Source: Cryobacterium glucosi (GTDB lineage: Bacteria > Actinomycetota > Actinomycetes > Actinomycetales > Microbacteriaceae). Taken from it: a DNA stretch of 64,000 nt. The notes under the pieces were generated by a model. That model made no database searches. It saw nothing but the letters and a program-made list of their open reading frames with translations, and had not been told where the DNA came from. The position numbers and the translations under genes are program-made. Shown here in pieces: positions 50,677 through 53,479 of this stretch (positions within the stretch are counted from its first letter, which is position 1; each line of letters starts with the position of its first letter). The stretch spans positions 124,001 to 188,000 of the forward strand of contig NZ_SOFS01000005.1 of the NCBI RefSeq assembly GCF_004402235.1, in the 5' to 3' direction.

Positions 50677-50768
50677 GCGCGACCGGGATCAACCCGGGGG
50701 AAGGCGCGCCGCGCCCGCTGGCTCCTCCACTCCCCACGACGCGGCAGCCCTTGCAAGGAGAACCGCCT

Positions 50769-51638
50769 GTGTCGTACGTCCAGCCCGACAAACTCATCGA
50801 TGACATCATTCATTCGGGTGTCGTTAAATCGAACCTGACCATTAAGCAGATGATCATCCGCGGAACCCTGTCCGGGGCGATCCTGGGCGCGGCAACGGCG
50901 GTGTCCCTGACCGCGGCCGCCCAGACCGGGCTTCCCATCGTGGGCGCCGTGCTGTTCCCGGTCGGATTCGCCATTATCCTGCTGCTCGGACTCGAGCTCG
51001 TCACGGGAAGCTTCGCGCTGATCCCGCTCGCGATCCTCGAGGGACGAACGACCATTAAAAAGGGCCTCACCAATTTCGGTGTCGTCATCGCCGCCCACCT
51101 GTTCGGCGCCGTGCTCTTCGGCTTCCTCTACGTCGTCTCGATCACCTACATGGGCACCGTGACCACAGACCCGATGGTCCAGGCCATCGTGCATCTAGCC
51201 GAGCACAAGGTTCTGCCGTATGAAGCGGTCGGCCCTGGCGGAATCGTCGTCGCGATCATCAAGGCGATGCTCTGTAACTGGATGGTCGCGATCGGCACGA
51301 TCATGTTCTACACGTCGAAGTCCACCGCAGGAAAGATCCTCGCGATGTGGCTTCCGGTCACGATCTTCTTCAGCCTCGGACTCGAGCACGCGATCGTGAA
51401 CATGTTCGTCATCCCCGCCGGCATGATGCTCGGCGCCCCGATCAGCATCGGCCAGTGGCTGCTCTGGAACCAGATTCCCGTTCTCGTCGGCAACCTGCTC
51501 GGTGCGATCCTTTTCACCGCCCTGCCGGTGTACTTCTCGCACCGCACCCGGGTCAACCGTGCCGCCCACCTGGAAGCGAGCGCTACGACCGCGACCGACG
51601 CCGAAACCGCGGACGAGTCCGTTCCCGTCCACGCCTAG
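50769..51638 (+). CDS. formate/nitrite transporter family channel
   Basis: The 289-residue protein has six hydrophobic segments and FNT marks: the central His in LEHAIVNMFVIPAGMM and the loop motif MLCNWMVAIGTIMFY. FNT channels pass formate, nitrite, lactate or hydrosulfide with proton coupling. AAGGAG lies eight bases before the GTG. It sits between rimM and trmD, a place where no such gene is expected, and its stop TAG forms part of the trmD promoter. Nearby sulfur assimilation makes nitrite or hydrosulfide possible, but formate fits equally. Confidence 0.88.
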   Translation: MSYVQPDKLIDDIIHSGVVKSNLTIKQMIIRGTLSGAILGAATAVSLTAAAQTGLPIVGAVLFPVGFAIILLLGLELVTGSFALIPLAILEGRTTIKKGLTNFGVVIAAHLFGAVLFGFLYVVSITYMGTVTTDPMVQAIVHLAEHKVLPYEAVGPGGIVVAIIKAMLCNWMVAIGTIMFYTSKSTAGKILAMWLPVTIFFSLGLEHAIVNMFVIPAGMMLGAPISIGQWLLWNQIPVLVGNLLGAILFTALPVYFSHRTRVNRAAHLEASATTATDAETADESVPVHA

Positions 51639-52433: not shown

Positions 52434-52949
52434 GTGTTCCTACGCAGGGTCTTCTATCGCTGGCAATTCCTTGCCGTGCTCGTGCTTCCGGCGTGGCTCC
52501 TGATCGGCGCGTCCCTCTTCAAGTCGAGCGGATGGGCCGTGCTCGGCAGCTTCTTCGGCGGCATCGTGCTCGGCCTCGGCCTGCTGGCCGTCGCCCTGCT
52601 CTTCTTCGCCCGCACCGAGGTGCGGCTGGAGCGGGCAGTGTCCTGGCGTGACGTCGGCGTGCTCACCCTGTGGCACGCCCTGATCGTGGCCTTCGGCTTC
52701 ACGGCGGGTGCGAGCTGGCTGCCGTTCCTGGTCGTGCTCGTCGGGCTCGCAGCCTTCTGGTTCGCCATCTGGGAGCTCTTCGCGAGTGCCAGGAGCCGGA
52801 TGCAGGCGATGATCGTGCTGATCGACGAGACCGCCAGAGGTGGGGCCCCGACCGAACCGGCCGCGGGGGAGCATCCGTCGCCCATCGGCTTCGAACCCAC
52901 CCCGGACCCGTCGGTCATCGTCGTGCGGGAGAAGCCGAAAGACACCTAG
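52434..52949 (+). CDS. hypothetical four-helix membrane protein
   Basis: The 171-residue protein has four hydrophobic segments (about residues 12-30, 34-60, 78-98 and 100-115) and a polar, Pro-rich C-terminal tail. I do not recognise a named family. It lies between trmD and rplS, where actinobacteria often carry a small membrane protein. GTG start is six bases after a TAGTCT -10 with no ribosome site. Confidence 0.7.
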   Translation: MFLRRVFYRWQFLAVLVLPAWLLIGASLFKSSGWAVLGSFFGGIVLGLGLLAVALLFFARTEVRLERAVSWRDVGVLTLWHALIVAFGFTAGASWLPFLVVLVGLAAFWFAIWELFASARSRMQAMIVLIDETARGGAPTEPAAGEHPSPIGFEPTPDPSVIVVREKPKDT

Positions 52950-52960
52950 CCGGCCCGGTT

Positions 52961-52988
52961 TTGCCGGAGGCGCGGATCGTGACATAAT
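52961..52988 (+). promoter_or_regulatory. promoter of rplS
   Basis: TTGCCG, a 16-base spacer and CATAAT form the best-matching sigma-70-like pair in the window. A start near 52995 gives a leader of about 140 bases that folds as described in the next entry. Confidence 0.55.
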
Positions 52989-53011
52989 CAGCGATTGTGC
53001 CGTAGCATGCC

Positions 53012-53116
53012 TCTGCCACAGGGGAGCTGCACCGTTCGGCACGGTCTTAACCTCATCAGTCGTCGCCCAGCACGTGTGTGCGCGGGCGACCTCAGCCGTC
53101 TTCGTCCTGTGGCGGA
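53012..53116 (+). ncRNA. candidate structured RNA leader of rplS
   Basis: TCTGCCACAGGG (53012-53023) pairs with TCCTGTGGCGGA (53105-53116) in 12 pairs, two of them G-U, closing a domain with two internal hairpins: ACCGT/ACGGT (53031-53045) and GTCGCCC-a-GCAC/GTGC-gc-GGGCGAC (53062-53090). The closing helix ends 18 bases before the rplS ATG. This three-way arrangement is typical of autoregulatory ribosomal protein leaders. I do not recognise it as a known class; L19 as ligand is inference. Confidence 0.5.
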
Positions 53117-53134
53117 TACAGAGAGCGAACAAAT

Positions 53135-53479
53135 ATGCATATTCTCGACCAGGTGGATGCCCCATCACTCCGGAAGGACATCCCGGCGTTCCGCGCCGGC
53201 GATACCGTCAAGGTTCACGTCAACATCGTTGAAGGCGCACGCTCGCGCGTGCAGGTCTTCCAGGGTGTCGTCATCGGCCGTTCCGGCGAAGGCGTCCGCG
53301 AAACGTTCTGCGTTCGCAAGGTCAGCTTCCAGGTCGGCGTCGAGCGTACCTTCCCGGTGCACTCCCCGGTTATCGACCACATTGAGGTCGTCACCCGCGG
53401 AGACGTGCGTCGCGCGAAGCTGTACTACCTGCGCAACCTGCGTGGCAAGAAGGCCAAGATCAAGGAAAAGCGCGACTAA
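53135..53479 (+). CDS. rplS: 50S ribosomal protein L19
   Basis: L19 sits at the 30S-50S interface. The 114-residue protein shows [26 protein letters not shown] and [18 protein letters not shown] at the end, the normal size and ends. ATG is preceded by AGAGAGCG, a weak ribosome site. An extended frame upstream would overlap the RNA leader and is rejected. Confidence 0.97.

Follow-up and report, generated by a model that had tools for sequence, protein, structure and literature searches.

A structured rplS mRNA leader in actinomycetes whose loops covary as a seven-pair helix, likely an autogenous translational switch for ribosomal protein L19

The stretch of DNA analysed here (the window, 64,000 nucleotides in full) is Cryobacterium-like; the closest named locus is that of C. 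algoricola, whose L19 protein is 100% identical. Around rplS, which encodes ribosomal protein L19 and is the putative controlled gene, the window holds the following row of genes.

49255: rpsP
49924: rimM
50751-51638: formate/nitrite-family transporter gene (TIGR00790 match below the cut-off of that model)
51648: trmD
52434: gene of a small protein with no family match
52961-52988, + strand: promoter TTGCCG, 16-base spacer, CATAAT, with TG before the -10 element (consensus scan)
53135-53479, + strand: rplS, ribosomal protein L19 (TIGR01024, 160.9 bits, cut-off 90.7)
Downstream of rplS: signal peptidase I gene, then ribonuclease HII gene

The transporter gene sits between rimM and trmD, and we know of no formate/nitrite-family transporter gene in the usual rpsP-rimM-trmD-rplS cluster. 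The promoter at 52961-52988 is one of two promoter-like sites found, where shuffled sequences average 0.1, and a scan of 52850-53250 found no terminator-like site. Between this promoter and the ribosome-binding site of rplS lies a leader of about 140 nt.

An earlier note on this DNA had placed a candidate control RNA in this leader, drawn as a 12-pair closing helix around two hairpins, behind the promoter listed above and in front of a gene it read as L19. Every part of the drawing can be found in the letters. The closing helix pairs 53012-53023 with 53105-53116, including G-U pairs 53014/53114 and 53023/53105, and encloses a hairpin of 5 pairs and one of 11 pairs (7+4); the rplS ATG stands at 53135, 18 bases past 53116, and the promoter and the gene are as the note named them. 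The predicted minimum-energy fold contains 11 of the 12 closing-helix pairs. The segment folds at -49.1 kcal/mol; dinucleotide shuffles average -38.7 (sd 3.6), which gives z -2.9, and 1 in 200 of them was as stable. Taken alone, this difference would be weak evidence. The form that relatives conserve is a different one, as described below.

For the comparison, loci were fetched by L19 from 60 relatives (30 loci kept), from 80 named loci, nearly all titled as Microbacteriaceae genera and sharing some genomes with the 60-relative set, and from a class sample in which 97 of 98 genomes had rplS. In total, 234 loci with rplS located were obtained, some genomes being represented twice. The class is taken to be the actinomycetes, to which Cryobacterium belongs. 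A first motif finder, which looked for an 8-mer complement near the ATG, was loose (86 of 1170 shuffles also reached 8 of 8 pairs) and, judged by eye, misplaced or falsely called the 5' site in at least nine loci; it served for seed choice and for setting up the P1 test described below, and presence was scored by a covariance model. Alignment A1 was made with MAFFT from 67 diverse leaders. The covariance model R1 includes helices P2 and P4 as pairs and excludes P3. Alignment A2 comes from running R1 on 100 non-seed loci, of which 96 matched with 97 matches (locus L121 matched twice, half a leader each time) and four, L113, L116, L130 and L157, were missed. The seeds carry some selection for P3, and P3 was therefore recounted on A2, where it was not modelled as pairs, while the P2 and P4 counts in A2 lean towards R1. 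Many A2 rows are near relatives of the seeds or of each other, so A2 is new in rows and not in ancestry.

A1 was read as a helix P1, a hairpin P2 with a 10-base loop, a hairpin P4 with an 8-base loop and a helix P3 of seven loop-loop pairs. In the window these elements lie as follows.

52997-53001, + strand: core GUGCC of the P1 5' strand, near the inferred transcription start (duplex energy test)
53005-53013, + strand: P2 hairpin, 5' strand (covariation; 8 of 9 pairs changed on both sides in A1)
53014-53023, + strand: P2 loop UGCCACAGGG, in which CCACAGG (53016-53022) is one P3 half (P3 pairing, covariation)
53024-53032, + strand: P2 hairpin, 3' strand (covariation in A1, A2 and the tree-aware test)
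53038-53042, + strand: core GGCAC of the P1 3' strand (same duplex energy test)
53062-53090, + strand: middle (11-pair) hairpin, a Cryobacterium insert outside the conserved core (20 leaders aligned, by eye)
53097-53104, + strand: P4 hairpin, 5' strand (7 of 8 pairs changed on both sides in A1)
53105-53112, + strand: P4 loop UCCUGUGG, in which CCUGUGG (53106-53112) is the other P3 half (covariation)
53113-53120, + strand: P4 hairpin, 3' strand, directly adjoining the ribosome-binding site (in this genome 6 of 8 P4 pairs form)
53121-53128, + strand: best Shine-Dalgarno-like stretch, GAGAGCGA (duplex with the 16S 3' end)

P2 is weak in this genome, where an internal loop separates CUC/GAG from GCA/UGC. 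Measured from the start codon, the loop-closing C of P4 has a median position of -22, and the best match to the anti-Shine-Dalgarno sequence begins at a median of -14, so that the 3' strand of P4 runs into the Shine-Dalgarno sequence.

The two loop halves can be followed by eye through the upstream regions of Microbacteriaceae, where a CUCUGCC-N-CAGGGG-like stretch is accompanied by a GACCUGUGGC-like one 20-30 bases before the ATG, and a change in one half is often followed in the other. Pairs of loop halves include GCCACAGG/CCUGUGGC, GCCUCUGG/CCAGAGGC in L061, GCCAUGAG/CUCAUGGC in L105, GCCGCGAG/CUUGCGGC in L106 and GCCGCAUA/UAUGCGGC in L113. In four loci (L091, L112, L123 and L185) CCUGYG and then YGCA replace CCUGUGGC as the 3' loop half, apparently a P4 loop variant that the four have in common.

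P1 was evaluated by duplex energy on 120 of 129 non-redundant matches; the other nine were excluded because their 5' site was wrong or false. The 5' and 3' strands of the same leader form a duplex of -15.5 kcal/mol on average, compared with -13.5 (sd 0.23) for permuted partners and -14.3 for the best of 2000 permutations. Single leaders are indecisive in this test, with 9 of 120 beating 95% of swaps.

Covariation was counted on both alignments. Paired cells in A1 amount to 64.7% for P2, 98.7% for P3 and 83.5% for P4, and 20 of the 24 pairs have changed on both sides. Overall 80.9% of cells are paired, compared with 69.7 (sd 0.7) in shuffles and 37-48% when partners are slid by 1-3 columns, and the covariation score is 0.377 compared with 0.179 (sd 0.009), a value reached by none of 500 shuffles. 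The 97 rows of A2, which lie outside model building, give 65.1% for P2, 94.7% for P3 and 86.5% for P4, with a score of 0.343 compared with 0.149 (0 of 500 shuffles as high) and 18 pairs changed on both sides, a number that 1 of 500 shuffles reaches. Within P3 only three of seven pairs show both-side changes in A2, and pair 23-216 is broken in 29 of 95 rows; the P3 failures are mostly one U-U combination (27 rows), seen by eye mostly in relatives of Microbacterium and Agromyces.

To these counts a tree-aware null was added, of the R-scape type and distinct from R-scape itself, in which Fitch changes are re-dealt along a tree of rplS coding DNA. On A1 the best eight of all column pairs are model pairs, as are all four with E<0.05. 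The combined test covers 162 sequences (A1 plus A2, with the two L121 rows dropped) and 2030 column pairs. The top 10 of the 2030, and all six with E<0.05, belong to P2, P3 or P4: 164-175, 162-178 and 163-176 in P4, which are three of the top four, 16-29 and 14-31 in P2, and 24-169 in P3 (E 0.005). No P3 pair besides 24-169 is individually significant in this test (22-171 has E 6.3 and 25-168 has E 25.7), and two P3 pairs hardly vary at all among the 162 sequences. In one parsimony reconstruction, changes of both bases that yield a new pair fall on 5, 2, 9, 3 and 2 branches for the P3 pairs 22-171 to 26-167. Across these alignments P2, P4 and the predicted loop-loop helix P3 demonstrably covary, and the RNA is real and conserved. 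That the signal reflects only a GC-rich intergenic region being stable by chance, or conservation of a promoter or of the DNA itself, might be suggested by the high GC content and the conserved promoter element nearby; it is refuted by the compensatory changes in three helices together with the slid-partner and tree-aware controls, and next to no weight is left on it.

The closing helix of the earlier drawing can be judged on the same columns. Across the 67 aligned leaders its eight middle pairs are kept, each being paired in 63 to 67 of 67, and its ninth pair, 18-175, is kept in 61 of 67 leaders, U-G and U-A being its usual forms. Pair 27-166, the innermost, is formed in 3 of 67, the outermost 16-178 in 22 of 65 and the next, 17-176, in 31 of 67. 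The nested fold was rejected as the conserved form in respect of three closing-helix pairs (the outer two and the innermost) and of both enclosed hairpins, the 5-pair hairpin not being kept, by eye, among 20 Cryobacterium leaders. The check that the note had asked for, covariation or loss of pairing in relatives, was thus passed by the loop-loop core and failed by the two enclosed hairpins; what is conserved is P2 and P4, two hairpins that the drawing lacks, with kissing loops. The hairpin at 53062-53090 is strong and fast-evolving, lies between P1 and P4, and is present in most of the 20 Cryobacterium leaders and absent in L015 and L232.

The seven P3 pairs may also be read as part of a nested long-range helix that alternates with P2 and P4, a two-state switch and not a simultaneous kissing complex. 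In this genome the predicted minimum-energy fold is of this kind, being nested with an extended P3 and without P2 or P4; pair 19-174 is invariant and 18-175 is kept as given above. Because this extension competes with the inner P4 pairs, P3 may form as an alternative to P4. The remaining pairs by which P3 could be extended (16-178, 17-176 and 27-166) are, however, unconserved, the inner pairs of P4 are those that covary most strongly, and seven paired bases fill the 8-base P4 loop. In kissing complexes the paired bases likewise fill the loop. An alternating helix is accordingly regarded as possible and rather doubtful, and the reading carried forward is that of a simultaneous kissing complex.

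The distribution of the leader was obtained with R1. The genome of the window has one strong match (E 5.7e-10); a further candidate copy of 22.7 bits (E 0.18) was taken as chance. Matches were found in 141 of 296 class genomes and 48 of 105 genera, one match in each genome, and rplS itself is present in 294 of the 296. All 108 matches that were checked, out of the 141, lie directly upstream of rplS on the same strand; 101 of these were checked by the printed position of rplS, at -2 to +31 nt upstream, and seven through the loci with the same result. In a sample of 198 genomes of the phylum, 10 matches were found, all inside the class and none outside it. These whole-genome searches used stricter filters that lose weak matches, and genomes G037 and G053 were missed although they have the leader. 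When R1 was run directly on rplS upstream regions, 50 of 97 class genomes gave a match and 47 gave none. Since those 47 have rplS and no recognisable copy, the leader would there be dispensable, replaced or too diverged. At closer range, counting by R1 on loci with the seeds included, the leader is present in 36 of 36 loci of the same genus (a 37th genome, G030, in which rplS is truncated at the end of a contig, was left out), in 80 of 80 named loci, and in 20 of 23 loci from other families of the order, L121 having it in halves only. The range of the element therefore extends far beyond Microbacteriaceae, to about half of the sampled class genomes. Presence in many families, with no match in families f22, f32, f33 and f34, would fit an old element with losses. 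Among class genomes, the promoter sequence TGNGGMANNNT stands no more than 300 nt before rplS in 26 of the 50 that have the leader and in 29 of the 47 that gave no match (27 of 1940 mononucleotide shuffles as background); as this extended -10 element is found in both groups, the rplS promoter seems to be more widespread than the leader.

Several loci were also inspected individually. L113 and L130, from the same order and from genomes of 1.8 and 2.7 Mb, have diverged leaders with loop halves CCGCCGCAUA/UAUGCGGC, apparently of the same architecture, and the model misses both. Family f22, which is presumably Mycobacteria-like (a guess from the start of the protein), has no R1 match; in its locus L160 a possible loop-loop pairing of different sequence, CCGCCUGC/GCAGGUGG, was seen by eye, with a GCGCAG/CUGCGC stem shortly before the Shine-Dalgarno sequence, and in sister loci of L160 an analogous loop-loop pairing is not clear. 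One leader-bearing genus, with genomes of 5.8-11 Mb, is presumably Streptomyces.

As is general for leaders of ribosomal-protein genes (r-leaders), the RNA is a structured 5' UTR element found consistently before an r-protein gene, in every checked copy, with a secondary structure supported by covariation. By position and structure it is, in kind, a ribosomal-protein leader. The intrinsic terminator that marks a transcription attenuator was not found in 52850-53250, and control of translation is therefore preferred over attenuation. The main reading, to which we give a probability of roughly 0.7, is a structured rplS mRNA leader whose loops covary as a seven-pair helix and which acts as an autogenous translational switch for L19. 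P2, P3 and P4 would form simultaneously as a kissing complex; L19 in excess over free rRNA would bind this complex and lock it, and the locked complex would keep the 30S subunit from loading at the Shine-Dalgarno sequence next to it. With little L19 present, opening of the loops or melting of P4 would allow rplS to be translated. Both L19 as the ligand and the L19-dependent repression of rplS are what we infer; short loop motifs compared with the 23S locus by simple string matching gave nothing convincing as an rRNA mimic. A leader with covarying structure yields a sharp prediction, that of two loops whose pairs can be swapped. If L19 is the ligand, structural studies would gain a compact RNA-protein pair, and the leader would be a point at which high-GC bacteria control ribosome assembly.

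The same hairpin beside the Shine-Dalgarno sequence could instead serve a riboregulator of rplS that senses a signal other than L19, such as the 30S subunit, another assembly factor or temperature. Linkage reveals the controlled gene only, any protein could have its site in the unpaired loop bases, which hardly vary, and assigning the ligand by the only regulated r-protein gene is a rule that its own users call uncertain in the part of their paper available (PMC7247131). With one match per genome, at rplS in all 108 checked, and with precedent favouring r-proteins that bind their own leaders, a signal other than L19 is considered unlikely. A leader acting mainly in processing or stability, with a ribonuclease such as RNase J setting the rplS mRNA level, is less likely still. 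In Streptomyces venezuelae, a species that may carry the leader, the L19 transcript drops 9.3-fold on RNase J induction and is one of 14 r-protein targets among 28, according to the sections available of PMC12096830. Those sections name no cleavage site in an rplS leader, and the 13 other r-protein transcripts drop as well, whereas checked model matches lie at rplS only; the covarying loops beside the Shine-Dalgarno sequence point to control of initiation.

A broader proposal, which we hold to be slightly favoured, is that of a new r-leader class: an ancestral actinomycete L19 sensor with two hairpins clamped by a kissing loop next to the Shine-Dalgarno sequence. It would predate the families that retain it, would have been lost or rewritten elsewhere, and would give the last r-protein gene of rpsP-rimM-trmD-rplS its first control element. 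The earlier note took this RNA to control rplS and to differ from known ones; at the level of sequence comparison, that claim is supported by strong covariation, by linkage to rplS in every checked copy and by the lack of an Rfam match. At gathering score, neither the window nor any of 16 diverse loci matched an Rfam 15 family, and six loci searched up to E 0.5 also gave nothing; with the limit raised to E 5, the one match close to the leader was the snoRNA family sR21, on the opposite strand (E 0.83). An actinobacterial L19 leader is absent from Table 1 of Eckert and Weinberg (2020; PMC7247131), supplements aside, and a term look-up found L19 not mentioned in the main text, as available, of large noncoding-RNA surveys. 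No actinobacterial L19 leader was found described in the literature covered, most subscription papers, preprints and supplements lying outside that scope. As far as checked, the fold and range of the leader are new.

The nearest counterpart by gene is the L19 leader of Firmicutes (RF00556, L19_leader), which was extended to Flavobacteria according to the available part of PMC7247131 and which, like the present RNA, is a presumed autogenous r-protein leader of the same gene. It differs in form: RF00556 is a 42-position model, whereas the present fold consists of two hairpins joined through their kissing loops. RF00556 did not reach its cut-off in any of 59 class genomes and had no match in the genome of the window, under filters that may lose weak matches; sub-threshold matches (E up to 1) occur in 14 of the 59, and the controls Bacillus subtilis and Lactococcus lactis both match, one of them over the cut-off. 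The nearest counterpart by mechanism is the mycobacterial rpsO (S15) leader, in which, as described in the part available of PMC8470358, a pseudoknot stabilised by uS15 hides the Shine-Dalgarno sequence, possibly through kissing loops in M. tuberculosis. The present proposal would hide the Shine-Dalgarno sequence in a like manner; rpsO differs in gene and ligand, and the likeness is one of proposed mechanism. Within the same phylum, the L31 and L17 leaders listed in Table 1 of Eckert and Weinberg (2020) are r-leaders of single r-protein genes, as the L19 leader is here, and by that table regulate rpmE and rplQ instead of rplS. The same source, as far as available, describes r-leaders as typically not widespread, whereas the rplS leader is found in about half of the sampled class genomes.
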